A stretch of DNA of 64,000 nucleotides from a virus: positions 62,001-126,000 of IMG/VR virus record IMGVR_UViG_3300025108_004223. One strand, written 5' to 3'. This document shows, piece after piece, positions 1 through 56,825 of the stretch. Position numbers and translations under genes: made by a program. A model generated the notes under the pieces. It was not told where the DNA came from. It searched no databases and saw nothing but the letters and a program-made list of their open reading frames with translations. Numbering within the stretch: the stretch's first letter is position 1; the number at the start of each line of letters is the position of its first letter.

Positions 1-183
1 CCTTCTTAGCTCTTTATAGTTGTCGTTATTCCAGCTCTCAATTGCTGACTCGCCTGGGTTGTTCAATGGGATCTCTTGTGCTTCGCAACATGGAACCATG
101 TCACCACCAGCACTGCCATAGATATGCATATACGGTAACATGCAAAAACTTTTGCTATTTTTGAGATCTTCTTTGTTAATCAT
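1..183 (-). CDS. Radical SAM protein, N-terminal fragment (cut by window edge)
   Basis: Only the first 61 codons lie in the window; the gene continues past position 1. The fragment has the N-terminal cysteine-rich block of the other twitch-type radical SAM proteins here: Cys14 in FCMLPYMHIYG, a Cys32-Cys33 pair in MVPCCEA, then SAIESWNNDNYKELRR, which matches the 'SL-EIWN-LR' stretch of the family. The radical SAM CxxxCxxC motif would lie outside the window. The start ATG overlaps the stop of the upstream gene as TAATG, so the two are translationally coupled. Family membership rests on the N-terminus alone but is convincing by comparison with four complete paralogues in the window. Confidence 0.75.
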   Translation of the reverse strand, partial: MINKEDLKNSKSFCMLPYMHIYGSAGGDMVPCCEAQEIPLNNPGESAIESWNNDNYKELRR

Positions 184-1391
184 TAGTAAGGTATATACTC
201 TATTCTATCTTTATACTCTGCTTCACACAAAGTTTTTAATCTGCGTATGCATGGCTCGTTAAAATCAAAGCCACGTATTTTCCAAATGTGTTTTAGGTTA
301 GCCAAGTAAGCCGCACTAAAATCTTCTACACCATTTGGCTTGCACAAGTCTTCTACTAGCTTCTTCATCTTGTTAACACGGTTGGGATTGATAACAGTTT
401 CGTTATACTGATAACGAAATGCGTCTAGTAGTTTTTCTTTAAACCAATCAGGCCAGTGTGTAACACTAAGATTGTTTGGTTCGTATACTGTTTGTAGTAT
501 AACATTATTTACTTTCTTTACATTGCGGGCCCAAACAACAAAGTCATATAGATATAGTATATTCATAACACTAATTGTGCATGCTATATTAACTTTAACC
601 TTGTCTGGATACTGTTGCTTGAATGCTAACCATTTGTCTAATGTATCTTCTGTCTTTTCCCATGTGCTAGGATAACGTATCATGGAATTAAGTTCACCAT
701 GTGCATCCATACTCATGCTAAGTGTAAGTTCCTTGAATTGGAACAATGCATCGTATTCTGCTTTCTTGGGCCACCATGTGCAATTACTAAATATTTCCAT
801 TTGTATCTGTGGAGCCAATCCTGCGTCTGCTAATCTTACAACAAACTTCATAAACTGTGGATGTAGGAATGGTTCGCCACCTGTTACTTTCATATGCTTT
901 AGATGTTTTAACGCATCTAAGTCAATCTCATCAAAGTTTACAACTTGATTCTTTTTTAGTTTAGCTATTAAATCAATTGCCGCTTGTGAGTTTTTGTTAA
1001 ACTTCAAGTAGTCGTCATCCCACTTGTGACTCCACTCTGGTCCACATGTTTGACAGGTCAAGTTGCATAGTCTACCCACTGTAATTTCTAAATACTCTAA
1101 ACGCACCTCATCAGTAAAGTCATTAAAGAACTCGTCTGCTTCAGTTCGCATGCTACTACCTTTGGTTTCCTCGTCTGCTTTACATTTATAACAACCTTCA
1201 TGCCATTCATTACGCATCATAGTTTCACGTATATCAGTGAACATCTCACCATACACGTTAACATGTTCCTTGTCGCTTTCTTCTAAAAATCTATCATGAA
1301 ATCTACAACATGGAGTTGTTGGAACTCCATGCATAATCATGCCTGCTTTAAAAGGATACGCACATGCGTTTTTAGGTAGTTTTTTTGACAT
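183..1391 (-). CDS. Twitch-type radical SAM protein
   Basis: Predicted radical SAM enzyme of 402 residues that would cleave S-adenosylmethionine to a 5'-deoxyadenosyl radical; the substrate is unknown. The CxxxCxxC cluster motif is Cys109, Cys113, Cys116 in LCNLTCQTC, followed by a GGEP motif near residue 171. An N-terminal cysteine block (Cys10, Cys28-Cys29, Cys67, Cys70, then an S-x-R stretch) resembles a SPASM/twitch auxiliary-cluster region moved to the N-terminus. I chose the ATG at 1391 because it overlaps the stop of the upstream PLP gene as TAATG; an ATG nine bases upstream (1400) is possible. Four paralogues occur in the window. Confidence 0.88.
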   Translation of the reverse strand: MSKKLPKNACAYPFKAGMIMHGVPTTPCCRFHDRFLEESDKEHVNVYGEMFTDIRETMMRNEWHEGCYKCKADEETKGSSMRTEADEFFNDFTDEVRLEYLEITVGRLCNLTCQTCGPEWSHKWDDDYLKFNKNSQAAIDLIAKLKKNQVVNFDEIDLDALKHLKHMKVTGGEPFLHPQFMKFVVRLADAGLAPQIQMEIFSNCTWWPKKAEYDALFQFKELTLSMSMDAHGELNSMIRYPSTWEKTEDTLDKWLAFKQQYPDKVKVNIACTISVMNILYLYDFVVWARNVKKVNNVILQTVYEPNNLSVTHWPDWFKEKLLDAFRYQYNETVINPNRVNKMKKLVEDLCKPNGVEDFSAAYLANLKHIWKIRGFDFNEPCIRRLKTLCEAEYKDRIEYIPY

Positions 1392-2377
1392 TAGAGCCAA
1401 GTGCCTTTTTGTTTATAGTTTTTAAGTGCATGTCTAATATTCACTCTATTATACACACCGTCTTTTTTAAATCGTTTCCACTGCTCTGCCTCTGGTGCTT
1501 GTGCAATGTGAATTGTATTAGTTGGTTGTAGTCCATAATGCTCACAGAGCAGTATATGTTCTTTCATATACTTCTTGGGCATAGTGTCAGGACTAAAGTT
1601 TTTCATAAGCTCGTTTGCAATGCATACATTTAAATGAATGCCATGTTTCCATTCTGTTTGCACTGCTAATGCACCTTCGTTAAGTTTGCTGAATACAATA
1701 CCTGCACGCCAGTTGCCACAGCTAAGACCTTTTGTAGTGCTGAACGCAACCATCTTAATACAATCTCTAGCCAAGTTAATCTCAATTCCATGACAAGTTC
1801 CAAACCACGCCATGTCTACAAATACAGGAATGTTATTAGCATCACAAAAGTCTAGTGTTTCTTCCATTTTGCTATGCTTTGCACCTGTGCCACTAAATGG
1901 TAAACTAATAAGCAATGCATCTCCTGTGCTTAATGGTGTGTCGTCTACATATCGCTGACCTATCCATTCTTCACCAAGTATAGCATCTCTGTTGTATGGG
2001 TATTCACCACGAAACATACGGAATTCATATCCATTTGCTAAACACCAATAATGCCACCAATCCATGCCTTGTGTAGTTCCTAAACTTACAAACCTATTTG
2101 GAAATGTGCGTAAGCCTTCTACTTTGTTTAGTTTACTGCTTTCAATCCAATCTGGATACAAGTCTAAGTATGCATCACATTCATCTTGCATACTAAAAAT
2201 ATCCATGTTGCCAAACACATGTTCAACTACGTGATCATAAAATGGCATATTCCAAATACTGTTGCCGTTTGTTTCAAAAATTTCTGTCAGCTTCTTTGCT
2301 TCTTCTACACTAAGATGATCAAATGGACTGTAGTGCGGTGTCATCTCCGTTCTACTTGTTACTTTTTCATTCTTCAT
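1391..2377 (-). CDS. PLP-dependent aminotransferase-like enzyme (fold type I)
   Basis: A 328-residue protein that looks like a fold-type I PLP enzyme. The expected cofactor aspartate is in PVFVDMAWFGT (Asp188) and the likely Schiff-base lysine is in AFSTTKGLSCG (Lys216), followed by an arginine as in aminotransferases. The N-terminal substrate region is divergent and the C-terminus is shorter than a typical 380-400 residue aminotransferase, so substrate and even transamination are uncertain. Its ATG overlaps the upstream SGNH-hydrolase stop as ATGA and its stop overlaps the downstream radical SAM start, so the three genes form one translationally coupled unit. Confidence 0.72.
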   Translation of the reverse strand: MKNEKVTSRTEMTPHYSPFDHLSVEEAKKLTEIFETNGNSIWNMPFYDHVVEHVFGNMDIFSMQDECDAYLDLYPDWIESSKLNKVEGLRTFPNRFVSLGTTQGMDWWHYWCLANGYEFRMFRGEYPYNRDAILGEEWIGQRYVDDTPLSTGDALLISLPFSGTGAKHSKMEETLDFCDANNIPVFVDMAWFGTCHGIEINLARDCIKMVAFSTTKGLSCGNWRAGIVFSKLNEGALAVQTEWKHGIHLNVCIANELMKNFSPDTMPKKYMKEHILLCEHYGLQPTNTIHIAQAPEAEQWKRFKKDGVYNRVNIRHALKNYKQKGTWL

Positions 2378-3090
2378 ATTTTACTTCCTTTAATAAATGT
2401 ATTCCACTTGTCTGCTATTAGTTTATGTGATCCTACACCGTGATGACCATCATCAAATGCTTTATCAATTATCCAAGAAGGTGAATTTCCTGGAGTATCC
2501 ATTGGGGTAAAATCTATATTCATATTTTTTGTTAGTGATTCAAGTCCTACTTCTTTAGGAGTTAATTCTTTATTAACTAAACCATGATAACAATTTATAC
2601 CACGTTCTTTGCAAAGCAAATCTACAAGTATTATTTCTCGCCATCGTTGAATAGCAAAATCATATTCATCATAGTAATCAGTATAGAATACAGTATCCTT
2701 CTTATCTAATCTATCCAGCCATTGCCTTTCTGAAGGGACACAACCCAACACTATATTATCAGGATTGTAATGAAATATTCCTGTCCTTGCAAATGCTGGC
2801 CATAGTATTGTTACTGTATCTCCATTGGAAATCATATTATGCTGTAAGCATTGTGTAAAAATCCACACGACTTCTTTGCTATTTGCACCACAACATCCAT
2901 AGTTATAACATGTCAAGTTTAATTTATCTGCTAGGAGTTGTGGCCATGCTAATTTACTTCCAAAGTTATAATTCTCTCCAAATTTAGTTGGATAAATCTC
3001 GCCTTCATAACAGTCCATATACTGAATTACATCTGGTAATGCATATCCAAAAGTGTGACTACAACCAAACGCAAATAGATTAGTCTTCAT
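2374..3090 (-). CDS. SGNH/GDSL-family hydrolase
   Basis: A 238-residue SGNH-like hydrolase. Block I is FAFGCSHTFGYA with nucleophile Ser11; a Gly/Asn-containing block (YGCCGANS) follows, and the C-terminus has the D-x-x-H pair in DDGHHGVGSH (about residues 213-217). Members are esterases or deacylases acting on lipids, glycans or acyl groups; many modify surface polysaccharides. There is no signal peptide, so action is cytoplasmic. It starts inside the end of the upstream hypothetical gene and overlaps the PLP gene by ATGA. Three more SGNH paralogues occur in this window, at 11503, 45491 and 59509. Confidence 0.82.
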   Translation of the reverse strand: MKTNLFAFGCSHTFGYALPDVIQYMDCYEGEIYPTKFGENYNFGSKLAWPQLLADKLNLTCYNYGCCGANSKEVVWIFTQCLQHNMISNGDTVTILWPAFARTGIFHYNPDNIVLGCVPSERQWLDRLDKKDTVFYTDYYDEYDFAIQRWREIILVDLLCKERGINCYHGLVNKELTPKEVGLESLTKNMNIDFTPMDTPGNSPSWIIDKAFDDGHHGVGSHKLIADKWNTFIKGSKI

Positions 3091-3697
3091 ATTTTAGTTC
3101 CCCTAATTGCACTTCTTTCCAATCATAACCGTCGTAGAATAATAGTTTTGCTCTTTTTGTGTCGTCGTATTTGGACCAGTCAACACCATAAGGTTGATGA
3201 TACATAGCTAGTGTTCCTGGTAATGGGTCTATTTCTTGTTTTTCCCAAACATTATCTAAAACTACAGGTGAGCTTATTTTCACTCTCTTTGTGCTGGCGT
3301 TAACCACCACCTTTATAGCTCGCTCATCTTTATCATCTACTCCTACACAAATATGTGCTTCATGTTCGCCACTTTGTCTATATACACCTCTGTATGAAGC
3401 AGTGTGCTTTAATTGATTGTGCATCATATCCGTGCTTATACCAAACATAATACCTTGTCCTATACAGTCTTTAAATCCTTCTTCGAGTGCAGAATAATCA
3501 CAAAGTATTCCTCTAAATAAATCTTCGTTATTTTTGGAACCAATTCTATCCCATCTCATGTTTGAATGTATTGGATAGACCATGCTATGTATTTCAAATT
3601 TTGTTCTAGACCATACATTTAGATCCTTGTCTACACACAATCTATCTTTCAACGGACCTGTATGCATATTCATATCTTCATCTGGTATTATTTTCAT
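3080..3697 (-). CDS. Hypothetical protein (205 aa) in radical SAM cluster
   Basis: I do not recognise this protein. It is 205 residues, soluble, without signal peptide or membrane segment. Its start overlaps the upstream radical SAM stop as ATGA and its end overlaps the downstream SGNH hydrolase by 11 bases, so it is made together with both. Mixed beta-rich sequence (for example RGVYRQSGEHEAHICVGVDD, then short hydrophobic strands) with several histidines could suggest a cupin- or oxygenase-like fold, but I see no clear HxD...H triad. Treat it as an uncharacterised partner of the neighbouring enzymes. Confidence 0.7.
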   Translation of the reverse strand: MKIIPDEDMNMHTGPLKDRLCVDKDLNVWSRTKFEIHSMVYPIHSNMRWDRIGSKNNEDLFRGILCDYSALEEGFKDCIGQGIMFGISTDMMHNQLKHTASYRGVYRQSGEHEAHICVGVDDKDERAIKVVVNASTKRVKISSPVVLDNVWEKQEIDPLPGTLAMYHQPYGVDWSKYDDTKRAKLLFYDGYDWKEVQLGELKYED

Positions 3698-4944
3698 TTG
3701 TATTTCTCCATCTCAGGTATACTCTTAAAAGTATCTGTATCTCTAAGTCTGTCCAAATCCTTTGTATACTTTAAAAACCAATCCCAATACTTGGTAGCGT
3801 CTTCTTCGTTAACATCTCGTCTAAGACCTGCACGTATATCGTCTATGCCTGTTTGATACTCAAACATATCAACTCTGCTGTTGCTAATTGGCCACATCTC
3901 CATACTTGGTATGTGTTCCATTTTTTCCAATGCTAAGTCCTTCAGCTCTCGTGGCATATGTGCAATGTTTAGATATGCTGGTGTTACTACTACATTTGTC
4001 ATACTAATACTAGCACGTTTTCTGTGATTTGTATAGAACCAATCCCATACCTTATCTAAATTGAATATGTTTGTAGTCATTACGGTTACTGCGAATGTTA
4101 CTTCAATGTTACCTTCTGCATAAAACTTTTCTAAGTTATCGTTAAGGTCATCCCATGTATAGTTGCCTCCACGTATAACACTGTATAAATTATCTGTTGC
4201 TTCAATACTAATAAGCAACTCAATGTGTTTAAACTCTTTGAATATCTCTTTGAACCTATCTTCAAATACTGTAGCATTTGTGCTGATGTCCAGTGCAACG
4301 TTCTTAGCAATGCCGTTATCCACAAACCATTTTAACACTTCGTAACAACGCTCGTCATATAATGGCTCGCCTCCTCGTAGTGCAACCCACTGTAAGTTCT
4401 TAAAGTATTCTGGGTTAGCAAACAAGTTATCCATAAAGCCTAGTTCTTTAACACCGTTGAATCCAATTGGTTGCTTGTTCCAATACTCTGGCATTTCTTT
4501 GTTTAGTGATTTGCCATCCTTGGTCCAACCTGTTGATACAAATGGCCCACAATGTATACATGCTAGGTTACACTTGTTGCTGAGTGTAAAGTCTAAGTAT
4601 CTAATATCTGGCGCACTGTCAACGTCAAGTGTTTCGCTTTCCATACGTAAATCGTAATCTAGTTTATCCCAGAAATACATACGTCTGCTACGTCCACTTT
4701 TTTCTTTCTTTGCACAATTGGCACAACTAGGTGGAATCTGTCTGTTACGATGCATCTCACGTAGTTCACGATACTGTGGACCTTCCCATATTTCTTTTAG
4801 AGTGTAGTCATTTATATTGCCTAACTTGTCTTTGTAAATAATATCTGGAACAACATTGCCGCCCCATTTGATTGTTAGTGCATGCCACGGTGCTATGCAC
4901 GTAGGCAAGTTTTCCATATCTAAGAATTTATTTCTATACGCCAC
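3694..4944 (-). CDS. Twitch-type radical SAM protein lacking the CC pair
   Basis: A 416-residue radical SAM protein. The cluster motif is CNLACIHC (CxxxCxxC) near residue 135, preceded by the family's N-terminal block (Cys16 in TCIAPWHAL, a LKEIWEGPQYRELRE stretch, then CANC and SGRSRR). Where the paralogues have a Cys-Cys pair (VxCC or PCC), this one has VVPDIIY, so an auxiliary-cluster ligand set is probably altered. The start codon is GTG at 4944, supported by a GGAG ribosome-binding site six bases upstream; it overlaps the upstream SPASM gene by 11 bases. The substrate is unknown. Confidence 0.87.
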   Translation of the reverse strand: MAYRNKFLDMENLPTCIAPWHALTIKWGGNVVPDIIYKDKLGNINDYTLKEIWEGPQYRELREMHRNRQIPPSCANCAKKEKSGRSRRMYFWDKLDYDLRMESETLDVDSAPDIRYLDFTLSNKCNLACIHCGPFVSTGWTKDGKSLNKEMPEYWNKQPIGFNGVKELGFMDNLFANPEYFKNLQWVALRGGEPLYDERCYEVLKWFVDNGIAKNVALDISTNATVFEDRFKEIFKEFKHIELLISIEATDNLYSVIRGGNYTWDDLNDNLEKFYAEGNIEVTFAVTVMTTNIFNLDKVWDWFYTNHRKRASISMTNVVVTPAYLNIAHMPRELKDLALEKMEHIPSMEMWPISNSRVDMFEYQTGIDDIRAGLRRDVNEEDATKYWDWFLKYTKDLDRLRDTDTFKSIPEMEKYK

Positions 4945-6007
4945 ATTTTACTCCACATATATTTTGGCAACTTTTCCAGCTACCTGTATTAAGTGCATTA
5001 CTTAGAGTTTGATCAAACCATTCATTACTTAGTATATCTCTTAAATTATATTTTTTAAGATCGTTTATTTTACGTGCTTCATGGAAACTAGCATCAACAT
5101 TATCTAAAAGAAATTTGTCTTCATTAATTGGGATGCCATATAAACTTACATGGCAACAAGGCCATACTGTAGCCCATGGATCAATCTGCACTTGCCTATC
5201 ATTATACCAAGGACAAACTGTCTCGGGTTCTGAACGCTGTTTAACCTTTAATTGATCATTTGCATTCATAAAAAACTTATAATCTCTAGAATCACTTAGT
5301 GACCATTTGCGAGAGAATTCGTCTGTTTCAGTAACGACTTGGTATGGCTCTATATTATAACAACCACTGATTTCATAAGAATCTTTACCAAGTTCAAACT
5401 TAATATGTTCACCATGGCTATGTCGCATTGTAAAGTAAACTGATTCAGTGTCCCATGCAATTTGCTCTATTTCTTTAAGTTGATGTTTGTTGTGTTCAAA
5501 TAATGTTGTTGTAACATTTGCTCTACCACCATTACTAGTAAATGCTTTTATATTTTCTATAATTTTATTAAAGTTTGTTTTTCTACGATACAATGAATGA
5601 GTATCTTCCATTCCATCAACAGCAAACACAACTAAATGATTTGTAAACTTTCTACATACAGCACCCAAGTCTCCCCAAAATTTCTTTGTTCTCATACTTC
5701 CGTTGGTATGTAAAAACAAACTAGTTTCTGGATGATACCGGGTCCATATGTGTAGCATTTCTACTAAATTAGGATGCATCATTGGATCGCCCCAATTACC
5801 ATTTAATGCTAAGTCGCCAATAAACCAACCACGTGTATCTTCTGTAGCAAGACGTTCCCATACTTCCATATCAAAATGTTCGAGTGGCAATTCTTCTTTA
5901 ACTTCGTTGCCGTCTTGATTACGTATACATGCACCACAACGGGCATTGCAATGACTTGTAATATCTACTTGTAAATTAGTTACTTCATTTGCCCACTTAT
6001 AATTCAT
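4934..6007 (-). CDS. Radical SAM/SPASM domain protein
   Basis: A 357-residue radical SAM enzyme with the cluster motif HCNARCGAC (Cys20, Cys24, Cys27) close to the N-terminus. The C-terminal SPASM-like region starts at CPWYNDRQVQIDPWATVWPC and ends with SCQNICGVKCGV, giving cysteines for auxiliary 4Fe-4S clusters. This is the classic layout of SPASM maturases and dehydrogenases, distinct from the twitch-type neighbours whose cysteine block is N-terminal. It lies three bases after the amidinotransferase stop, so it is co-transcribed with it, and overlaps the next radical SAM gene. Related SPASM proteins are at 46177 and 62035. Confidence 0.9.
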   Translation of the reverse strand: MNYKWANEVTNLQVDITSHCNARCGACIRNQDGNEVKEELPLEHFDMEVWERLATEDTRGWFIGDLALNGNWGDPMMHPNLVEMLHIWTRYHPETSLFLHTNGSMRTKKFWGDLGAVCRKFTNHLVVFAVDGMEDTHSLYRRKTNFNKIIENIKAFTSNGGRANVTTTLFEHNKHQLKEIEQIAWDTESVYFTMRHSHGEHIKFELGKDSYEISGCYNIEPYQVVTETDEFSRKWSLSDSRDYKFFMNANDQLKVKQRSEPETVCPWYNDRQVQIDPWATVWPCCHVSLYGIPINEDKFLLDNVDASFHEARKINDLKKYNLRDILSNEWFDQTLSNALNTGSWKSCQNICGVKCGV

Positions 6008-6010
6008 ATT

Positions 6011-7099
6011 TTAAATATACTTTTTATTTGTTATATAGTCGTGGCATCCACCTTCACGAACTAAGTCACTTGTTAGACAGTGAATTCCACCATCCCAAAA
6101 GTATTGATGTCTAAAGCGCCATACAATAGGCTCAATGCCGTGTGCTTCCATTCTACGGAATGCAGCATCATTACGTCCTGTGCATATAACTGTATTTTCA
6201 TCTAGTGATAATACGTTAACATCAAATACACTTTCATCAGCATATCCTACCCAGTGTGATAACCATTTTGCTACATACTCTTTATAGAATCTACGTTTAC
6301 GTGTTTGCTGGAAGTCCTGTGGCATTTCGTGGTCATCATCAACTTCGATAATATCCCAATTTTTAAGTTCGTCAGGAACCCATTTTTTATTCCATGTCAT
6401 TAATACACCTGGGCGTAGCAATGCAATTTTACCATCTGCGTGTCCGCCAACCTTAATATCCAAGAACTTAGTGCCTGGGTAACGTTGCGAGATCTCACGT
6501 TGCATCCATTCTTTACCAAGTAGTGTGCCTTTTCCTTTTTTGTTATCTTCTTCCCATGCTTGTGAAAACAAAATTGTATCTCCACATTTAATCATATTAG
6601 CTGCATGGTATAAAACCTTTTGCTCTGCTGAGTATGTATCATACCCAATACCGCCACGCACCATAGCACCTGGCATTGAAACCCAATCGGCTCCACTCTT
6701 ATATAGCTCTACCATATGATCATAATATGCTAAGTTTTCGAAGTATCTATTATCGCCGCCTGTGAAACATTCAAACACACTGTTGCCATATGGCATTAGT
6801 GTATCACGTGGCATCAATGGGTGGTTAGGAAATCCACAACTCATCCAAGGTAATTGTATTTGTTCATCGCCGTTGATAGTAAAAATGTTACTAGGGCGTA
6901 ATACTTCAATGCCTCTATCTTCTAATAGTTTTGCAAGGACTTCAATGTCCTCTGCTGTTTCTGTAAAGATTTGACGCATAGTATCTCGTGTTTCTGGATC
7001 CTTGTGCCAATCAAAAGTTTCTGGGGGAAATGGAGCGCCAAGTATAACCTTCTTTAAAGGTTGAAACTCTGTCCATACACTAACTGCTGGTGTAGTCAT
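6011..7099 (-). CDS. Amidinotransferase-family protein (glycine/inosamine amidinotransferase-like)
   Basis: A 362-residue member of the guanidino-group-modifying superfamily that includes glycine amidinotransferase and streptomycin-pathway StrB. Visible family blocks are EFQPLKKVILGAP at the start, MPRDTLMPYGNSVFE, KVGGHADGKIALLRPG with the catalytic histidine, and the C-terminal DGGIHCLTSDL with the likely nucleophile Cys341. The expected reaction moves an amidino group from arginine to an amine acceptor; the acceptor is unknown. Length is close to bacterial amidinotransferases. An AGAGAGG ribosome-binding site precedes the ATG. It is the first minus-strand gene after the divergent intergenic region and heads the left radical SAM cluster. 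Confidence 0.85.
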   Translation of the reverse strand: MTTPAVSVWTEFQPLKKVILGAPFPPETFDWHKDPETRDTMRQIFTETAEDIEVLAKLLEDRGIEVLRPSNIFTINGDEQIQLPWMSCGFPNHPLMPRDTLMPYGNSVFECFTGGDNRYFENLAYYDHMVELYKSGADWVSMPGAMVRGGIGYDTYSAEQKVLYHAANMIKCGDTILFSQAWEEDNKKGKGTLLGKEWMQREISQRYPGTKFLDIKVGGHADGKIALLRPGVLMTWNKKWVPDELKNWDIIEVDDDHEMPQDFQQTRKRRFYKEYVAKWLSHWVGYADESVFDVNVLSLDENTVICTGRNDAAFRRMEAHGIEPIVWRFRHQYFWDGGIHCLTSDLVREGGCHDYITNKKYI

Positions 7100-7184
7100 A
7101 AAAAGCCTCTCTTATTTTTTGTATAAATATATTTATCCATATTAACATAGTAGTTAATTACTAGCCTAGTTTGTATTAATACAA

Positions 7185-7213
7185 TTGACATATAGCCAAA
7201 ATTAATATATACT
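7185..7213 (+). promoter_or_regulatory. Sigma70-like promoter for the plus-strand gene pair
   Basis: TTGACA at 7185-7190, a 17-base spacer and TATACT at 7208-7213. An AAGGAGA ribosome-binding site at 7224-7230 precedes the ATG at 7240. This is the only clear plus-strand promoter seen and serves the only plus-strand genes. Confidence 0.8.
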
Positions 7214-7239
7214 TGTTGTAACTAAGGAGAATTAAAACA

Positions 7240-8076
7240 ATGACACGAATCGCCCTAGACAAAGATCATGCCAATGAGATAACTGTGCATGAATTTGACG
7301 CTACTAATATAGATATTATAGCACACTCTGAAGAATTATACAAGTCTTTTGAGAGCGGATGGCCAGTAGTAATTAAGAATTTAGTTATTCCTGGCATTGA
7401 CTATGATTACTATGATAACCTTGATGATTGGATTATTAAGGATAACAAATGGATTATGCCTTGGTATAACTCACATATTAAGAAACGTGACCGTATGCGT
7501 AGTGAACGTAATTGGACCGAAGAACAAATTGATGAATTTCATAAGAAACACAAGCAAGCCAACAACGGTTGGAATGAGATATTTGATAAACTTTTCCCAC
7601 GATACAACACACCAGAACGTATGCTCAGCCATAGATATAATATGCTGGTTGAGAACAAATTGCACTTAGATGAATTGGACGAGCAACATACCGGACAGGA
7701 ACAACAGATAAGAATGTTTGTTAACTTAGATAAAAAGCGTCCTCGGGTGTTAACATTCGGACCAGACTTAGAACAAATGTGGTATAAGTATAAAGATGAA
7801 TTTAACTTAGAAGAATTAGATAAAACTAACATACATACATTTATTAGTGAGATGCGTAATCGTTGCGTATGGAATGATAAAAAATGGGATCAGTTTCATC
7901 ACCCACTTCATTATCTTACATTTGATCCAGGTGATGTTTGGTTTTTTAATGCACAATGGATTACACATCAAATTGTATTTGGTTCAAAATTACAATGCTT
8001 TGAAACAGACATTATGAATGATAGTTTATTATGTCCAGAACTATGTATGACAGAAAGGATAAAGAACTTTGAGTGA
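7240..8076 (+). CDS. Putative cupin/2OG-oxygenase-like protein
   Basis: A 278-residue protein, first of two plus-strand genes. The C-terminal half looks like a double-stranded beta-helix: QQIRMFVNLD, PRVLTFGPDLE, then HHPLHYLTFDPGDVWFFNAQ followed by a histidine in WITHQIVFG. That could supply metal ligands of a cupin or 2-oxoglutarate/Fe(II) oxygenase, but no textbook HxD is obvious, so the assignment is tentative. A strong promoter and AAGGAGA site lie just upstream. The gene overlaps the next by eight bases, and its partner is a clearer 2OG oxygenase, which supports a shared oxidative job. Confidence 0.6.
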   Translation: MTRIALDKDHANEITVHEFDATNIDIIAHSEELYKSFESGWPVVIKNLVIPGIDYDYYDNLDDWIIKDNKWIMPWYNSHIKKRDRMRSERNWTEEQIDEFHKKHKQANNGWNEIFDKLFPRYNTPERMLSHRYNMLVENKLHLDELDEQHTGQEQQIRMFVNLDKKRPRVLTFGPDLEQMWYKYKDEFNLEELDKTNIHTFISEMRNRCVWNDKKWDQFHHPLHYLTFDPGDVWFFNAQWITHQIVFGSKLQCFETDIMNDSLLCPELCMTERIKNFE

Positions 8077-9085
8077 TATACAACATACAATAATCGAAAA
8101 CTACTTGCCGAAAGAATTATTCAACAAGTATTATAAAGAATATCCAGTAGATTGGATTAAAGAATATTGTAGTGACCCGACGGTAAGTGAACACGACAGT
8201 AGCTTGTATGGAAACTATAGTGCTCCTACAGAATTATACGATCCAGATTTAATAGAATGGGTTAAACAACAACTACCAGATATTAAATTAAATGCGGTTG
8301 GACGTGAAGTAACGCACGACCATTTTTATACTAACTTTCATTATGACGAACGTGGTAGTTGGATAGAGGAACACAACGACTTAAAAGATATGCGTTGGTT
8401 AGTTACAAATCAGATATACATGTGTAACAATCAAGGTGCAAGATTATTAGATAGAGAACTTAATGTCACTGCTGAAGTTCCTTGTGTGCCTAACACATTT
8501 TATAATATTGTTGCAGACCCTTGGAGTTGGCATGATGTGCCAGAAGTAAGCAACCATAAAAGAAGTATACTATTTCGTGTAGGTAAACGTAGAAGCAATA
8601 GTATTGCACATCCCGATGACGGAGACGATACCGCTTATATCATATACAACAACTTTCAAAAAGACAGACATTATGCAAAGTTAGGTCTACGTATGGGCAA
8701 TCTAACTGAGGCACATCTACATAGTTTAGGTGCTAAAAACATAATGCATACTGCTTGGCGTAGTGAAGAAAGCCTGCATAGAAACATAAAGAAAGCCTTA
8801 CAGCGTTATAAACGGGTGGTTATTGTGCTTAGTGGATACTTACTGCCTAGCTTAACGATCGCTGATAATACCGCACTACAGACGCTTACAGACGCTAATA
8901 CGCCGGTGAATTTAGATGAAAATGTTGAGATTGCGGAGTATTTCCGTATAACTGATGACAATATAGATGCTTATGCAGACTGCGTATTTTCCGATTTAAG
9001 CGGTGATCATGTGTTAGCTGAAGCTGAGCAAGTTATGTATACTTACTACCAAAATAAGCTACATTTGAACTATATAGACCTATAA
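8069..9085 (+). CDS. 2OG-Fe(II) oxygenase-like protein with C-terminal extension
   Basis: A 338-residue protein whose first 180 residues fit a prolyl-4-hydroxylase-like oxygenase: HND in WIEEHNDLKD gives the HxD pair, WHDVPEVSNHKR gives the distal His, and RSILFRVG gives the 2-oxoglutarate arginine. Residues from about 190 onward form an additional unassigned domain. The start is TTG at 8069, with AGGA at 8056-8059 as ribosome-binding site, overlapping the upstream gene's stop. It ends 18 bases before the convergent radical SAM gene. The substrate is unknown; the neighbours suggest small-molecule or glycan tailoring. Confidence 0.75.
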   Translation: MSDIQHTIIENYLPKELFNKYYKEYPVDWIKEYCSDPTVSEHDSSLYGNYSAPTELYDPDLIEWVKQQLPDIKLNAVGREVTHDHFYTNFHYDERGSWIEEHNDLKDMRWLVTNQIYMCNNQGARLLDRELNVTAEVPCVPNTFYNIVADPWSWHDVPEVSNHKRSILFRVGKRRSNSIAHPDDGDDTAYIIYNNFQKDRHYAKLGLRMGNLTEAHLHSLGAKNIMHTAWRSEESLHRNIKKALQRYKRVVIVLSGYLLPSLTIADNTALQTLTDANTPVNLDENVEIAEYFRITDDNIDAYADCVFSDLSGDHVLAEAEQVMYTYYQNKLHLNYIDL

Positions 9086-9102
9086 AAGGGTGTCTTAGAC
9101 GC

Positions 9103-10365
9103 TCAAATACCGTCCTGTATGCGTTTAAATTCAGGAGCTATACTCATTACATCGTGTCCGCGAAAGATGTCGTAGTTGTTGGTTATATCAACATACTGCT
9201 TCATTATCTCTGGATTATATACATGATCTGGATCCTTACCAAAGTTAACCATTTCCATTAAAGGTTCTTCATAATCCTCGTAATGTGGACTATTATGGAT
9301 TGATTTTAAAAACTCTAGCACTTGTTTTTCTTGCTCATCACGTAACCATTGTGGACTATGTGCCATACTGTAATAATGTGGTTCTACTAATTGATTAGTG
9401 CTCATGCCAATTCCTTTGTCATTCTTACATTGATAATTATGCATGAACTTCCAAAAGTCTACAATGTGCAATGCATTGTGTATTTGGTTGACTGTTGTTA
9501 CACGAACTTTAATACGTTTACCGGCTTTAGTATTTGAAAACTTAACCAGTTTATCAAAGTTTTTCCAAACAGAGGCCCACTTGGAAGGTGGACGTAAATA
9601 ATCATTCATGGCGCCCATGCCTTCCAAGGAGCAGTTTACAATCACTTTTTCAAACTTCCCTAATTGTTCTAACCATCTATCTTGCATATTAGTGATATTG
9701 GTATAGAAACTAAGTTCGATGTGATCAGCGTGTCCGGATTCTACTGCGAGATCTAGCAAAGTAAACATATCCTTTGCAACCGTTGGTTCCCCGCCTATAA
9801 GTTTTATTTTACGAGCTTTTCTTATCATGTCCTTAAAGCTCGCCCAGTCGATTCCAGGTTGAAGAAGTGCCTGCTTCTTGTCTGCAATGTTGGCATGCCA
9901 GTCGGGATGGTTCGCTCCGAGTCCGCTTTGTACCATTGTCGCACGTTCCACACTCACTAAGTGAGATGCTTCTTTGTTGCACATCTGACACTGTAAATTA
10001 CACAAATTGCCAAGCCTGAAATCAAATTGTAAAGGTTGTTTAACCTCCCAATCATTAACGGAAGCGTCAGCAACCACTTCGTCAATTACGTCTTCCCACA
10101 CTTCGTTTTCCCATTGTCTGCTGCTGACAATATTATTGCGTTCCAAGTGTAAACATTCACTACACTCAGGTAACCATTCACCTGCGGTCATGCGTTTACG
10201 AACATCTTTAATGTAGTCGTGGTTCCATGTTCCGTCGATGCCTAGTTTCTCTTGGTCTACTAGTTCTGTGGGTTCTTTGGCCATGCAACATAACCTATAT
10301 CGTCCGCCATTATATGTGCTATATTGAACGAATGGTAATGCACAAAAGCCGTTATCTGTTTTCAT
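9103..10365 (-). CDS. Twitch-type radical SAM protein
   Basis: A 420-residue radical SAM protein. The N-terminal block has Cys8 (FCALPFVQYS), Cys26-Cys27 (YRLCCMAKE) and CSEC, followed by SSRQWE. The cluster motif is CNLQCQMC near residue 140, then KLIGGEPTVAKD for SAM binding. The gene looks less AT-biased than its neighbours by eye, which may mean a separate origin; a composition scan would tell. Its ATG overlaps the stop of the upstream 2OG-oxygenase-like gene (ATGA). It converges on the plus-strand pair. Confidence 0.88.
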   Translation of the reverse strand: MKTDNGFCALPFVQYSTYNGGRYRLCCMAKEPTELVDQEKLGIDGTWNHDYIKDVRKRMTAGEWLPECSECLHLERNNIVSSRQWENEVWEDVIDEVVADASVNDWEVKQPLQFDFRLGNLCNLQCQMCNKEASHLVSVERATMVQSGLGANHPDWHANIADKKQALLQPGIDWASFKDMIRKARKIKLIGGEPTVAKDMFTLLDLAVESGHADHIELSFYTNITNMQDRWLEQLGKFEKVIVNCSLEGMGAMNDYLRPPSKWASVWKNFDKLVKFSNTKAGKRIKVRVTTVNQIHNALHIVDFWKFMHNYQCKNDKGIGMSTNQLVEPHYYSMAHSPQWLRDEQEKQVLEFLKSIHNSPHYEDYEEPLMEMVNFGKDPDHVYNPEIMKQYVDITNNYDIFRGHDVMSIAPEFKRIQDGI

Positions 10366-10958
10366 ATGTATCTCGTTAGTAAACTCTTTCTTACCCGATC
10401 GCCTTGCTCGGTATAATGGTAATCAGCATTTGCGTTACTCCCATATACAAGAAAAGAATTTCTTATTAGTGGTAGTTCTTTGCTTTCTAAAATATCAAAG
10501 CAGTTATCATTATTTTCATTATAGCTATTTTTATCTACATTGCAAAGTATTGTTCCATATTTTTTATAATCTATATCAGGCATGTATATATGCCATTGTA
10601 TTACTTCTTTACCAATGGCATCAGTGTGTAAATGTATATAATGTTCTGGATCATCCCATAGATAATCCGTGTAAATTCTACTTATATCATTCCATGGTCT
10701 AGTGGCTGTTAATTTATTTTTTATTGTATCATATAATTGTTTAGATGTTTCTACAAATTCTCTAAATGGTTTCCATTCTACATCAGCACTAAGACTATGA
10801 TCAGGGGGCCTACATTCAAACTGTTGAGCATGAAAATCTTTTACTAACTGAAAATAATGATCGTCACTTAAAAAATTTTCAATCCATAAATGTTCGTATG
10901 GACTAGTAAGCAATTCTGCAGAGTCTATTTTATCTATGATATAATTAAATTCCTGCAT
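10362..10958 (-). CDS. 2OG-Fe(II) oxygenase-like protein
   Basis: A 198-residue protein with a compact double-stranded beta-helix. HLHTDAIGKEVIQWHIYMPD carries an HxD pair (HTD), the distal His is in ADYHYTEQGDR, and RKSLLTRY supplies basic residues for 2-oxoglutarate binding. This is the layout of small phage prolyl-hydroxylase-like oxygenases. It is coupled by TAATG to the upstream nucleosidase and by ATGA to the downstream radical SAM gene. The substrate is not predictable. Confidence 0.7.
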   Translation of the reverse strand: MQEFNYIIDKIDSAELLTSPYEHLWIENFLSDDHYFQLVKDFHAQQFECRPPDHSLSADVEWKPFREFVETSKQLYDTIKNKLTATRPWNDISRIYTDYLWDDPEHYIHLHTDAIGKEVIQWHIYMPDIDYKKYGTILCNVDKNSYNENNDNCFDILESKELPLIRNSFLVYGSNANADYHYTEQGDRVRKSLLTRYI

Positions 10959-11506
10959 TAAACTGTTTTAAGTAAATCTAAAAATAGTTCTGCTCCATTA
11001 GACTGATTTTCTTCCCAAGTTTCTGGTGCATCTTTGTCTGCCATGTCGCTTGCATATTTAATTATCGTAGTTGGCTTGTTAAACATCTTGCCAACTTTAG
11101 CAATTGCATAACCTTCCATGTCAACTAAGTGACTTCTTAATGCAGGTGGGTCTGTTACAAAATTATCACCTGTGCTTAGAATTACTTTACTATCAGCGTT
11201 AAGTGTTATGTCACCTGCAATTTCTGTTGTTTCGTATGGTGTTAGTCCTAAATCAATAACTGGTCTACAATCCATATCACGTTGTCTTACTGCACCTACT
11301 TCTAATAGCTTGCCTGCTAAGTCTGGTGCTAATGCGCCTGCTGTTCCATAATTAATAATACGTTCACAGTCAGGTTGGTTAACAGCCAGTGTTGCTGAAA
11401 CTGTTGCATTAATTTTACCAACGCCTGTATACCATACTTTAAATTTTTCAGGGTTAAGTTTATTCTCTGGCAGTTCGCCTTTGAGTGCTACTAATACGTA
11501 TATCAT
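10958..11506 (-). CDS. MTA/SAH nucleosidase-like (phosphorylase superfamily) protein
   Basis: A 182-residue member of the nucleoside phosphorylase/nucleosidase superfamily. Family blocks are GVGKINATVSA, INYGTAGAL and VDMEGYAIAKV, the last containing the Met-Glu that binds ribose, then KYASDMADKDA with the catalytic aspartate region. The closest function by motif is 5'-methylthioadenosine/S-adenosylhomocysteine nucleosidase, which also cleaves 5'-deoxyadenosine, the by-product of radical SAM chemistry. It is shorter than the usual 230 residues. It is embedded in the radical SAM cluster, which fits a by-product removal role. The specificity is inferred, not shown. Confidence 0.75.
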   Translation of the reverse strand: MIYVLVALKGELPENKLNPEKFKVWYTGVGKINATVSATLAVNQPDCERIINYGTAGALAPDLAGKLLEVGAVRQRDMDCRPVIDLGLTPYETTEIAGDITLNADSKVILSTGDNFVTDPPALRSHLVDMEGYAIAKVGKMFNKPTTIIKYASDMADKDAPETWEENQSNGAELFLDLLKTV

Positions 11507-12180
11507 TTTATATCCTTTGTTTTATTTATTATATCTATAAATCTTCTAGCTATATCTTTTTGTTCTTTCGGCCCAGGGTGTTTGCCATCGTGGGCTCTAT
11601 CAACATAGTTACGATGACAAAGAATATGGTCTATTAAATTTATGTCAGACGGCAATGGAAGTTCTTTTTCTTCTACCCCTAAATCTTGCAACATATGATA
11701 ACTTTTTACTCCTATACTTTGACATGCATAATGTGTTAAACTTATCATCATGATAGTGTTCATAATATTGTCATATGCATCTGTAACTTTGTTATACGCT
11801 TTCTCTAATTTTTTATTAGGACCATTTTTAGTCCTACCTTGTCCTGCATCTAATGTTTCTTCAAACTCTTGTTTTAATATAACATGTCTATCAGAATAAC
11901 TCCATAAAAAACATACAATATCATTTTGCTTTATTTTAGGAAGCATGTGTTGAAATCGCCATGCTATTTCTTTATTGCCTGATCCGGGTGTGCCAAAATT
12001 ATAACATTCTTTATTGATGTTTTTAGCAACAAGTGTTGGCCATGCATACTTACTTGCATAACTTTTGTATGGATCATATGTAGGAACTCGATATGGGACC
12101 TTGGGATCAGGCCATACTTTTATATCGTCTAATGCATATCCATATGTAAGACTATCACCAAATGCATATAATTTACTCAT
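11503..12180 (-). CDS. SGNH/GDSL-family hydrolase
   Basis: A 225-residue SGNH hydrolase. YAFGDSLTYGYALDD is block I with the nucleophile serine at about residue 10, FGTPGSGNKEIAW gives the oxyanion Gly/Asn, and DGKHPGPKEQKDIARR gives the catalytic Asp-x-x-His. It is clearly related to the protein at 2374 (shared GYAL-D and WP-L-A spacing). There is no signal peptide. It directly follows a radical SAM gene with an eight-base overlap; an SGNH gene beside a radical SAM gene recurs at 45491/46177. Confidence 0.85.
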   Translation of the reverse strand: MSKLYAFGDSLTYGYALDDIKVWPDPKVPYRVPTYDPYKSYASKYAWPTLVAKNINKECYNFGTPGSGNKEIAWRFQHMLPKIKQNDIVCFLWSYSDRHVILKQEFEETLDAGQGRTKNGPNKKLEKAYNKVTDAYDNIMNTIMMISLTHYACQSIGVKSYHMLQDLGVEEKELPLPSDINLIDHILCHRNYVDRAHDGKHPGPKEQKDIARRFIDIINKTKDIK

Positions 12181-13639
12181 CTAGTAGGTCTGGATCAATT
12201 GCACCTGTTGGTGGTGTCCATGGCTCGTCTAGTAAGTAAGCCATTTCAGGGAATGTCTTGCGGAAATCTGTCCCACGCATAGCATCAAGTTTATTAATAT
12301 ATTCACGGAACTCAGGTAAACGTCTGCTCCAGTCTTCGCTACGTGCAAAACTAATCATACCACGTAAACGCTTAATACCGTAACTTGCGTTTTCCCATTG
12401 TTCTTTAGTTACTTTTCCTTTGTGCCATGTAGGAACACCTAGTTCCCAATTTTCTTTCCACCATTCAATAAATTCTTCATACTTGGCTTCTGTTTTGTCT
12501 AAGAATTCGTCTGGTAGCACTTTAACATTTAAGTGTCCTGGCCAGTATACAAAGTGATAGTTAATACCACCTGCACCAAATGGCCACATATTTGTTTTAT
12601 GTAATCCACTTTCTGCTAGTTTCCATTTAAGGAAATCTGGAATGTAATGAATGTTAAGAGCGTTAACGGCACATGCAATTGTAACTTCTACATTATTAGT
12701 TGTTTCAGTGTCTAAACGTTTAAACATTGCAAGTTGGTGATCCCATTCACTTGGGTAACGAATATAGTCATTCATAGCACCAATGCTGTCAATACTGTAG
12801 TGGAAACGCACTTTCTTAAAGTGTGACCATAACTCTAACAATCTATCCGGTAGTTCAATTCCATTTGAATTATAACGAACTTCCATTTCACTAGCATAAC
12901 CCATTTCGATTACTTTGGCTAGGATTTCATAGTGTTCTTCAATAACTGTAGACTCACCACCTGCAAAGTATAGCTGACGCATGTATGGAATTTGTGCATA
13001 AAATTGATCCCAAAACTCTGGATTGTTTTTGTGCCAGTTATAACTTGCACCAAACTCTTTACCTTTGTTTTCCCAAATCATAGTTTGTTTAAGACTCTCA
13101 TTGGTAATCTGTGGATATAATTTGTTCCAGTCTTTTACCCAGCCTGAGCTATCATGTGGACTACACATAACGCACCCCAACTGACATTTCGTTCCCATAC
13201 GGATATCAATATATCTAAGTTTACTATCTGTTGATCCATCTTCGTATGTTTCCTTTACTAGCTCATCTACATCAATACCATTGTTCATCCAGTATTGTGT
13301 TTCCCATTGACGTTTTGATCTGTGGCCTGCCGCTTCTTCTTTAAAGCACTTTAAACAACTTGCAGGCTTCTCACCATCAAGCATCATCTTACGAACACTT
13401 CGCATATATGTGTTATTCCATGCTGTATTTAGATCTGTTGTGTTTAGGTTAGCAGGCTTGCCATCTTCTGTTTTAACAATACCTACTCGTCCACCATGTT
13501 CTTTATCGTTTGTAGCACCAACACTACTTGCATTGGCTGTGCAACATACTCGCATACTCCCATCTGGTCTTGTGCTTAAATGTATCCATGGTAGTATACA
13601 AAATGTTTCTGATGGGGTGGGTAGGTCGTGTTCGCTCAT
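12173..13639 (-). CDS. Twitch-type radical SAM protein
   Basis: The longest of the family here, 488 residues. The N-terminal block has Cys14 (FCILPWIHLS), a PDGSMRVCC segment (Cys32-Cys33), CLKC and GHRSKRQWE. The radical SAM motif is KCQLGCVMC near residue 155, followed by YFAGGESTVIEEH, the SAM-binding GGE. The extra length is an insertion after the CC pair (VGATNDKEHGGR and following) and a longer middle region. A CGGAG ribosome-binding site overlaps the end of the upstream sulfotransferase-like gene, and it overlaps the SGNH gene by eight bases. Confidence 0.89.
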   Translation of the reverse strand: MSEHDLPTPSETFCILPWIHLSTRPDGSMRVCCTANASSVGATNDKEHGGRVGIVKTEDGKPANLNTTDLNTAWNNTYMRSVRKMMLDGEKPASCLKCFKEEAAGHRSKRQWETQYWMNNGIDVDELVKETYEDGSTDSKLRYIDIRMGTKCQLGCVMCSPHDSSGWVKDWNKLYPQITNESLKQTMIWENKGKEFGASYNWHKNNPEFWDQFYAQIPYMRQLYFAGGESTVIEEHYEILAKVIEMGYASEMEVRYNSNGIELPDRLLELWSHFKKVRFHYSIDSIGAMNDYIRYPSEWDHQLAMFKRLDTETTNNVEVTIACAVNALNIHYIPDFLKWKLAESGLHKTNMWPFGAGGINYHFVYWPGHLNVKVLPDEFLDKTEAKYEEFIEWWKENWELGVPTWHKGKVTKEQWENASYGIKRLRGMISFARSEDWSRRLPEFREYINKLDAMRGTDFRKTFPEMAYLLDEPWTPPTGAIDPDLLDE

Positions 13640-14317
13640 TTACATCTCCGGGATTTTACAAGTTGCGATGTAGACATCATTGTGCTTAATATTATTATTT
13701 ATCTTGTTATAATCTAATTCAAAAGCATCACTTCTATCAAATCCCGCCCAAGAGGCAAATTCGTTTGTATTGTAAGGTTTAAATGTCAAACCTTTACGCA
13801 TTGCAAAGTCTGTAATCTTAGAACTTTCTTGCCATAGTATCTCATACATTCTATTATAGTCTTTGTAGCCTGGTCTGTAATCTGGATAGTGACTTTCATC
13901 GAAGCACATAACTTCGCTCCACCAAGCAAAACTTTTTTGTGGTTCTCTATAAATTAAAACTATTTTATCGCCTGGAAAGTTATTCCATATAAAATCTAAA
14001 TTAAAATGTCTTGCAAAGAAATGGCTTTTAATAATACGATAGCCTTCTCCAGAGAATACATTGTTAATATCGTCTTGTAATTTATGTTTTGTTAAGTGGT
14101 TAAAGTCAACCCAGTCTTCGCCACAGCCCATGCCAGGCCCCCAATAGCTACCACGATGGCCATTGTTAGCATCGTTTGGATTAAACGCTCTATGATATTG
14201 TGTTCTGTTTGGTGTTTCATCTGTGCGATCACAATGTAAAATGGAACGCATCTGTATATCGATACCGCTCCATCTACTACCTGGAATTCCACAGAACCAT
14301 ATATTTGTATTATTCAT
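13640..14317 (-). CDS. Sulfotransferase-like P-loop protein
   Basis: A 225-residue protein that begins with a sulfotransferase-style phosphosulfate-binding loop (IWFCGIPGSRWSGI) and has a central strand with IVLIYREPQKSFAWW, like the R-x-P block used by PAPS sulfotransferases to bind the 3'-phosphate. Such enzymes transfer sulfate from PAPS to glycans or small molecules. It lies just after a terminator and is first in the transcript that continues into the radical SAM cluster, though I see no consensus promoter between. The fold assignment is likely; the acceptor is unknown. Confidence 0.55.
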   Translation of the reverse strand: MNNTNIWFCGIPGSRWSGIDIQMRSILHCDRTDETPNRTQYHRAFNPNDANNGHRGSYWGPGMGCGEDWVDFNHLTKHKLQDDINNVFSGEGYRIIKSHFFARHFNLDFIWNNFPGDKIVLIYREPQKSFAWWSEVMCFDESHYPDYRPGYKDYNRMYEILWQESSKITDFAMRKGLTFKPYNTNEFASWAGFDRSDAFELDYNKINNNIKHNDVYIATCKIPEM

Positions 14318-14333
14318 TATATACCTTTCGGAC

Positions 14334-14359
14334 TAGGAAAAGAGGACCTAAGTCCTCTT
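14334..14359 (-). terminator. Rho-independent terminator
   Basis: A perfect 8-bp stem (14340-14347 with 14352-14359) with a four-base CTAA loop. On the minus strand it is followed by TTTTCC. It starts four bases past the stop of the 95-residue gene at 14363 and separates the small-protein block from the radical SAM cluster. Confidence 0.8.
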
Positions 14360-14362
14360 ATA

Positions 14363-14650
14363 TTATTTAAAATATTTTCCTAGAAATCCACCTACTCCGT
14401 TTAATACATCTGATTTAACTAATTCAAAATCAATCTTAACTTGTATGTCTTTGATATCTTCTTTCATTATATGATTAACGACATCCTGTCCAGACTTTTC
14501 AATTCTTACAAGATCTTCTTTTGTCATAGTTACACTCTTACCATCTTGTAACTCTATGATGATTTCAAGTATGTATTCGGCTGGCACATGATCTAGTGAA
14601 ACCTGATCGAATATTATGTCAAACGATCTATCTTTACGCTCAATTGGCAT
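14363..14650 (-). CDS. Conserved phage-type small protein
   Basis: A 95-residue acidic protein of unknown function. I chose the ATG at 14650 because AGAGG lies nine bases upstream; a GTG further up would add nine residues. The C-terminus (KIDFELVKSDVLNGVGGF, then LGKYFK) resembles the tail of small proteins I recall from marine T4-like phages, but I cannot name a family. It sits directly before the terminator, as the last gene of the transcript coming from 17.1 kb. Confidence 0.7.
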   Translation of the reverse strand: MPIERKDRSFDIIFDQVSLDHVPAEYILEIIIELQDGKSVTMTKEDLVRIEKSGQDVVNHIMKEDIKDIQVKIDFELVKSDVLNGVGGFLGKYFK

Positions 14651-14709
14651 TCCACTAATCCTCTTATGAAGTGACACTAATTACTCAAGTGGCTATGCCA
14701 CTATACTAT

Positions 14710-15309
14710 TTATTCAGCGACAGGCTGTTTAGCTGGTCTGCCTCTGCGTGGCTTCAATGAAGGATCTAATTCATACGCTTGCGTCTTTAATGACTCTGCT
14801 TCTGCTAAGAATGATTCAGCTTGTGCAATCATACTCTTTGCAAGGTCACCATCTGCTAGTGCATCTGCTTTAGCACCAATTTCTGGAATATCACTTATGT
14901 CACGTGCTGCAGGTTGGATTTGTGTATCATCTGGTGATACAACAGGTGCTCCATCAGTATCTTCTCTAATAATATCATTCAGTTCTTTTAAGTTAACTGA
15001 TACACTATTATTAGGAGTCATTGCAACTTTATCTGTGGGGTATTTAATTAAACGCCCTGAACTATGTAATGTTTGTAACATATTAGTTCCATCAGTAAAT
15101 ACTGTTCTTTCAGCATACTCATAAAAGTTTGCACTTGATTGTGCTCCGGGTGCCTCAACTGCTTTCATTAGATCATCATGCATCCAATCTGGGGCTGCAT
15201 CTGTGTCTACGAGTAAACAGTGTGTTGGATCATCTGGTAATTCACGGAAGACTACAATACACTTTTTCTGTGTATTAATAATCTGTCCTACGTGTTTTAT
15301 ATTTGCCAT
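14710..15309 (-). CDS. Hypothetical phage protein with AT-hook-like C-terminus
   Basis: A 199-residue soluble protein. The N-terminal half is a compact domain (KCIVVFRELPDDPTHCLLVD); residues from about 140 are Ala/Asp/Glu-rich and probably helical. The last residues, KPRRGRPAKQ, look like an AT-hook DNA-binding core (RGRP). The function is unknown. A GGAG site 10 bases upstream supports the start. It follows the 76-residue gene by three bases and is in the same transcript as the VWA/MoxR genes. Confidence 0.75.
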   Translation of the reverse strand: MANIKHVGQIINTQKKCIVVFRELPDDPTHCLLVDTDAAPDWMHDDLMKAVEAPGAQSSANFYEYAERTVFTDGTNMLQTLHSSGRLIKYPTDKVAMTPNNSVSVNLKELNDIIREDTDGAPVVSPDDTQIQPAARDISDIPEIGAKADALADGDLAKSMIAQAESFLAEAESLKTQAYELDPSLKPRRGRPAKQPVAE

Positions 15310-15312
15310 AAT

Positions 15313-15543: not shown

Positions 15544-15593
15544 TAGTTATTCTCCTCGAGTTAAAAATAATTATATACTATGTTTATTTATCC

Positions 15594-43675: not shown

Positions 43676-43694
43676 GCATTGTTATTAACGCTTT

Positions 43695-56810: not shown

Positions 56811-56825
56811 ATTTTCTCCTTTGAT

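Follow-up and report, generated by a model that had tools for sequence, protein, structure and literature searches.

A radical SAM-rich gene island of a T4-like virus and its counterpart in Bdellovibrionales: a candidate glycan-tailoring pathway

T4-like phages rich in radical S-adenosylmethionine (SAM) enzymes have already been published. The Campylobacter phages CP220 and CPt10 carry 11–12 radical SAM (rSAM) genes, five of which form an interchangeable cluster together with an amidinotransferase gene (Timms et al., 2010, PMC2853527). According to the accessible parts of the respective reports, the T4-like genome TARA_ERS488813_N000010 has 12 rSAM genes, an A-type iron-sulfur (Fe-S) carrier, grx, paaD and cas4 (Nishimura et al., 2017, PMC5332604), and the T4-like Lake Baikal phage VP_139 encodes an rSAM, a methionine adenosyltransferase and a methylthioadenosine/S-adenosylhomocysteine (MTA/SAH) nucleosidase (Coutinho et al., 2020, PMC7678222). 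rSAM cassettes have also been noted in pelagimyophages (Zaragoza-Solas et al., 2020, PMC7029224). Here we describe an rSAM gene island in the 126,762-base virus record IMGVR_UViG_3300025108_004223 of IMG/VR. The window is the whole stretch of DNA analyzed, 64,000 nucleotides corresponding to bases 62001–126000 of the record (genome position = window position + 62000). Ten rSAM genes, out of 16 in the record (numbered RS1–RS16), lie within one gene-tight 25.6-kb island (genome 50677–76317); gene order in the island is conserved among viruses, its core recurs in Bdellovibrionales genomes, and genes for cofactor supply co-occur with rSAM richness.

The window phage resembles CP220, which is T4-related and rSAM-rich and has a five-rSAM cluster with a putative amidinotransferase; the CP220 module also holds two nucleotide-diphospho-sugar transferases, analogous to the sugar-linked module described here. 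However, the CP220 amidinotransferase is only 26% identical to that of the window and keeps the Asp of GATM where the window family has His165, the rSAM sets are not orthologous (RS6 is unmatched in CP220 and RS14 has no match in Campylobacter phages), and CP220 lacks the SAM synthetase MetK, Fe-S carriers, nucleosidase and ferredoxin, all of which the window phage has. TARA_ERS488813_N000010, a marine T4-like genome, shares the many rSAM genes and an A-type carrier, but the accessible sections of its account do not describe how the genes are ordered, a module, a SAM synthetase or nucleosidase, or any counterpart in bacteria (PMC5332604). The VP_139 genes are interpreted, in the part of the report available, as pyrroloquinoline quinone and SAM-cycle support of methylotrophy, and no conserved rSAM island is reported there (PMC7678222). 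Pelagimyophages such as Mosig carry rSAM, carbamoyltransferase, Asp/Arg hydroxylase and sugar aminotransferase genes near the tail fibres, the Mosig module comprising a 4-amino-4-deoxyarabinose (Ara4N)-type aminotransferase, a carbamoyltransferase and an epimerase; yet Mosig has only 2 PF04055 matches, its pyridoxal phosphate (PLP) enzyme is only 24.5% identical to that of the window phage, and the tested cofactor genes are absent. A first-pass annotation of the window had proposed an undescribed system. That holds for the conserved core, its bacterial twin and the cofactor genes as a unit, of which we found no description in the literature outside subscription journals, but not for rSAM-rich T4-like phages as such (PMC2853527, PMC5332604, PMC7029224) or for the CP220 cluster.

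The radical SAM inventory and the island

PF04055 matches 16 places in the record, and a QueE-like enzyme that lacks the plain CX3CX2C motif is a seventeenth rSAM. All 16 genes (16/16) have the CX3CX2C motif together with a PF04055 and/or NF033640 match, which places them in the superfamily, and rSAM genes occupy 46% of the island against 15% of the whole record. The rSAM genes named in the first-pass annotation are thus real, including the SPASM proteins at 46177 and 62035, and its count of eight besides QueE in 64 kb was correct. It had, however, seen only the right half of the island, and its "fragment at position 1" is indeed an rSAM but belongs to a whole 411-aa gene that crosses the window edge.

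NCBIfam scores and sequence comparison divide the set into ten N-twitch enzymes (RS1–3, RS7–11, RS13 and RS14), five rSAM/SPASM types (RS4, RS5, RS12, RS15 and RS16) and RS6, which stands apart from both. The curated cut-off of the N_Twi_rSAM model NF033640 (170 bits) is exceeded by all eight N-twitch enzymes scanned against it (RS2, 3, 7, 8, 10, 11, 13 and 14); RS4, RS6, RS12, RS15 and RS16 reach 29–51 bits and are therefore other rSAM types. The five N-twitch enzymes and one SPASM enzyme assigned earlier to the left 14 kb were correctly classed (RS9, RS10, RS11, RS13 and RS14; RS12). We found no characterized member of the N-twitch family in the literature, and the module offers a first testable function for it. 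In one bacterial protein of 876 aa (L118:6448–9078), two N-twitch units are fused.

Paralogues within the record are only ~20–35% identical, and orthologues reach 94%. Thirteen island genes have dN/dS values of 0.04–0.34 and are under purifying selection; RS12 is the fastest-changing rSAM among those compared. The rSAM richness goes beyond chance: besides this selection, control viruses with related DNA polymerases have few rSAM genes (0–4 in isolate jumbo relatives, 0 in two contigs with a 59% identical DNA polymerase, one of them 182 kb long). CP220 has 11 and Mosig 2, and related viral contigs have 25 (G003, 184 kb), 22 (G019, 328 kb) and 21 (G006, 138 kb) rSAM matches. RS5 (genome 50677–51674, left of the window) consists of two pieces, an rSAM part of 214 aa and a SPASM part of 118 aa, whose reading frames overlap by 4 bases. 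A frameshift was considered and rejected: nine relatives have the same 219–226-aa first part, so the gene split is real and inherited.

The part of the island within the window, which includes the gene upstream of RS14, reads as follows (window positions).

1–183, minus strand: 5' end of RS9, N-twitch rSAM (whole gene at genome 60948–62183)
183–1400, minus strand: RS10, N-twitch rSAM (NF033640, 229 bits)
1391–2377, minus strand: PLP enzyme, aminotransferase class I/II-like, conserved beside RS11
2374–3090, minus strand: SGNH-like protein (earlier label)
3694–4944, minus strand: RS11, N-twitch rSAM (262 bits)
4934–6007, minus strand: RS12, rSAM/SPASM-type
6011–7099, minus strand: amidinotransferase-fold enzyme (His165 in place of GATM Asp254; His220, Asp222 and Cys341 retained)
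7240–8076, plus strand: conserved protein, encoded on the island's opposite strand
8069–9085, plus strand: putative oxygenase, conserved (earlier label)
9103–10365, minus strand: RS13, N-twitch rSAM (293 bits)
10362–10958, minus strand: putative 2-oxoglutarate (2OG) oxygenase (earlier label)
10958–11506, minus strand: MTA/SAH-type nucleosidase (Glu11, Glu131 and Asp154 invariant)
11503–12180, minus strand: weak GDSL/SGNH-like hydrolase
12173–13639, minus strand: RS14, N-twitch rSAM, the most conserved member (422 bits)
13640–14317, minus strand: conserved protein upstream of RS14, sulfotransferase-like in the earlier annotation

The labels given before to the proteins at 2374 (SGNH), 8069 and 10362 (2OG oxygenases) and 13640 (sulfotransferase) are plausible but have no Pfam match, and the SGNH label at 11503 has a weak GDSL match (E 1.8e-4), below the cut-off, and is plausible as well. 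The nucleosidase, PLP enzyme and amidinotransferase assignments are supported. The three catalytic residues of the nucleosidase are invariant in 8 orthologues; its scores lie below the curated equivalog cut-offs (PRK05634, 112 bits against 129; PRK05584, 72 against 169). The amidinotransferase-like enzyme matches HsvA in a profile search with E 5.5e-41, its nearest solved relatives being HsvA, SxtG and StrB1; as a caveat to the assignment, its invariant His165 aligns with the catalytic Asp254 of GATM. Profile searches against PDB sequences gave nothing usable for the PLP, GT-A-like, methyltransferase-like and 7240–8076 families, and a fold claim for h59372 (genome 59372–60826) was dropped, as its AlphaFold model has a mean confidence (pLDDT) of 52 and matches nothing in the PDB below E 0.001.

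Conserved core and bacterial counterparts

A scan of IMG/VR with the amidinotransferase found 41 loci. Most of those at 71–94% identity keep the order RS14–nucleosidase–RS13–(opposite-strand pair or single gene)–amidinotransferase–RS12–RS11–PLP–RS10–RS9–h59372–h57891–hydroxylase, with RS8 beyond the hydroxylase in many of them. At 45–53% amidinotransferase identity, RS14–amidinotransferase–RS11 are retained, PLP, RS7 and RS15 are present in most loci and RS6 in several, and RS14 is still ~64–68% identical. The first-pass annotation had reasoned that missing synteny and scattered paralogues would make a single pathway unlikely; dozens of viral contigs share the order and the paralogues form orthologue lines of their own, so that a single pathway survives this check. 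RS14 itself has relatives in at least 572 coding stretches of IMG/VR, indicating that the system is common and untouched. Among 50,697 isolate phage records, RS6 has no match and RS14 has 3 weak ones.

We counted core genes in 31 full divergent viral loci whose RS14 is less than 75% identical. RS15 is present in 31/31, a GT-A-like protein in 29/31, a methyltransferase-like protein in 27/31, RS6 in 25/31 and RS7 in 23/31, with PLP in 13/31 and the amidinotransferase in 8/31. The true core is therefore RS14–RS15–GT-A–methyltransferase–RS6(–RS7), the amidinotransferase and PLP enzyme being accessory. In the window phage this core is split, RS14, RS7 and RS6 lying in the island and the other three at window 46177–51109.

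46177–47268, minus strand: RS15, rSAM/SPASM-type, core partner of RS14
49320–50444, minus strand: methyltransferase-like core protein (motif reading)
50405–51109, minus strand: GT-A-like core protein

At L055:11513–13468, a single protein of 651 aa combines an h57891-like part with an Asp/Arg hydroxylase domain and so links two neighbouring island genes. A 257-kb virus contig has two B12-binding rSAM proteins beside its island (L124:10751–12604 and 14251–15957), which are shared with Bdellovibrionales.

Among GTDB contigs, the RS6–RS15–RS14–methyltransferase block occurs in three Bdellovibrionales metagenome-assembled genomes (MAGs; L056, L057 and L058). It is the same RS6–RS15–RS14 block as in the phages, but chromosomal, with RS14 58–62% and RS6 ~55% identical to the phage proteins, and the Bdellovibrionales sequences form a separate branch in both the RS14 and RS6 trees. 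In L057 the block is embedded in a capsule/exopolysaccharide (EPS)-type locus, its neighbours being an NAD-dependent sugar epimerase, an asparagine synthase, GT2 glycosyltransferases and an Acyl_transf_3–SGNH protein. A second contig of the same MAG, C47, has at least 13 genes in common with viral islands: two B12-rSAMs (38–40% identity), a methyltransferase (50%) and a protein pair (42–46%) are shared with G014 and its relative L038, and its rSAMs match four consecutive G003 genes at 37–46%. C47 also holds HMGL, aconitase, aminotransferase and carbamoyltransferase-like genes. Such modules are present in bacterial chromosomes without phage genes. We found no published function for the Bdellovibrionales RS6–RS15–RS14 loci, which provide a bacterial handle on the product. 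Two further loci, L055 (filed under Neisseriaceae) and L059 (Gammaproteobacteria), were rejected as bacterial; their RS14 nests among viruses in the trees, and they are probably phage contigs mis-binned in MAGs. GT2 glycosyltransferases with a long basic repetitive tail ("FWLPNE" or "IYWLPGK" repeats) are encoded at L057:11275–13368 and L056:12135–14060.

A cofactor kit in the window lineage

The record encodes MetK, a ferredoxin, an NfuA-like NifU domain and an A-type Fe-S carrier, with an adenine phosphoribosyltransferase (APRT) gene placed between the NfuA-like and A-type carrier genes. The nucleosidase gene lies inside the island, and a phosphoribosyl pyrophosphate (PRPP) synthetase and a weak FTR1-like permease, which in virus G003 sits among the Fe-S genes, are also encoded.

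23596–24684, minus strand: MetK, SAM synthetase
28227–29186, minus strand: PRPP synthetase (partner APRT outside the window)
36026–36568, minus strand: FTR1-like iron permease (weak)

We compared 31 records, 21 rSAM-rich (at least 6 rSAM genes) and 10 rSAM-poor. Ferredoxin was found in 13/21 rSAM-rich versus 1/10 rSAM-poor records, MetK in 11/21 versus 0/10, the nucleosidase in 11/21 versus 1/10, the A-type carrier in 9/21 versus 0/10 and NifU in 9/21 versus 1/10. Matches to MetK, carriers and nucleosidase in the isolate phage collection were left out, as most of them appear to come from prophages or contaminated records. Ferredoxin is the most widely shared part, reaching G013–G015 and G018–G020. 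That the kit is obligatory for rSAM-rich phages was rejected, given CP220 and the clade G012–G017.

These genes would together provide SAM, Fe-S clusters, electrons and possibly iron, and remove a waste product. 5'-Deoxyadenosine is a byproduct and an inhibitor of rSAM enzymes (PMC8102628), and we infer that the phage nucleosidase removes it. MetK would make SAM, the NfuA-like and A-type carriers would deliver Fe-S clusters and ferredoxin would give the electron, while APRT and PRPP synthetase would recycle the adenine released when the nucleosidase destroys 5'-deoxyadenosine. Sixteen to 25 radical enzymes together with SAM, Fe-S and electron supply and waste disposal are unexpected in viruses, and if the module makes one product, it would be a new kind of viral metabolic pathway.

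Candidate products of the pathway

We give about even weight to the proposal that the island works together with the RS15 locus as one pathway for glycan tailoring, probably of the host surface. The tailoring of a glycan or an unusual metabolite had been suggested from the window; the GT-A-like core protein, the bacterial block in a capsule-type locus and the sugar genes in the modules of CP220 and Mosig favour the glycan half of this suggestion. The AlphaFold model of the GT-A-like protein (pLDDT 84) has as best PDB matches almost exclusively GT-A enzymes or nucleotidyltransferases, including RmlT, HddC, SunS, ppGalNAcT and chondroitin polymerase (E ~1e-3 to 1e-2; best E 1.2e-3). Four further genes of the window are annotated as follows.

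26356–27252, minus strand: QueE-like rSAM, separate 7-deazaguanine role
37291–38244, minus strand: NAD-dependent sugar-nucleotide epimerase
60479–62038, minus strand: NodU/TobZ-type carbamoyltransferase
62035–63054, minus strand: RS16, rSAM/SPASM-type

In such a pathway, the GT-A-like protein and the sugar-nucleotide enzymes would provide or transfer a sugar, and RS14, RS15, RS6 and RS7 would carry out the core radical steps, which may be epimerization, dehydrogenation, deoxygenation or bond formation at unactivated carbons. Variable decorations could come from the accessory rSAMs, PLP enzyme, amidinotransferase-like enzyme, carbamoyltransferase, oxygenases and methyltransferase. The product would most likely change the glycan on the infected cell's surface, for example to block superinfection. 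A bolder version is tentative, and we think it possible rather than probable: a viral rSAM pathway that supplies itself with SAM, Fe-S clusters and electrons, disposes of 5'-deoxyadenosine, makes a class of sugar or aminocyclitol with heavy modification by no known route and is shared with Bdellovibrionales through horizontal transfer.

Several observations weigh against glycan tailoring by a self-supplied pathway. The GT-A structural match falls short of E 0.001, and C47, with its HMGL, aconitase and aminotransferase genes, is more like a small-molecule pathway. The p-values for kit co-occurrence (0.005–0.11) are only indicative, because the test draws on related contigs, some of them incomplete. 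Neither CP220 nor the second rSAM-rich clade, G012–G017, has MetK, either carrier or the nucleosidase, which makes the kit chiefly a feature of the window lineage.

The main rival, which we consider unlikely but serious, is a diffusible or intracellular small molecule such as an unusual amino acid, an aminocyclitol or an alkaloid-like compound. The amidinotransferase-like enzyme, the NodU/TobZ carbamoyltransferase, the PLP enzyme and the oxygenases recall the tailoring of natural products, and the addition of HMGL, aconitase, aminotransferase and B12-rSAM genes in C47 keeps the metabolite reading alive; the presence of the GT-A-like protein in the deepest core and of one MAG's RS14 block within a capsule-type cluster argues for a glycan instead.

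Most characterized SPASM rSAMs act on peptides. The N-twitch and SPASM enzymes might by analogy modify a virion protein or a ribosomally synthesized and post-translationally modified peptide (RiPP), and there are weak cross-matches to RiPP maturase models, but every RiPP maturase equivalog cut-off is missed by far and the island is almost fully coding; its largest gap of 140 bp leaves no room for a precursor gene unless very short. We regard this explanation as improbable.

Hypermodification of phage DNA has a similarly small probability in our view. Restriction enzymes often fail to cut the DNA of Campylobacter phages, a group with some rSAM-rich members (PMC2853527), and the record encodes QueE and a PTPS/QueD-like protein (genome 22902–23390; L010:2902–3390), part of the 7-deazaguanine pathway. 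However, both genes are far from the island, and the modules also occur in phage-gene-free bacterial chromosomes, beside glycosyltransferases. A plastic region that collected unrelated auxiliary genes would explain why accessory members differ between viruses, but is very improbable given the orthologous order kept at 45–95% protein identity, the near-invariant core and the tight gene overlap.

Replication genes of T4 type, for a DNA polymerase and a clamp loader, are present in the record, which may be a fragment. Among isolates, the nearest DNA polymerases (43–50% identity) belong to jumbo T4-like phages, Phosso, Atu_ph07 and RaK2 among them. The minus strand at window 43599–43771 holds two tRNA-Arg genes, with anticodons tct and gcg. 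At window 55737–58289, also on the minus strand, TctA (PF01970, E 1e-85) and a TctC-like neighbour without a Pfam match represent a tripartite tricarboxylate transporter, an odd nutrient-uptake set for a phage record.

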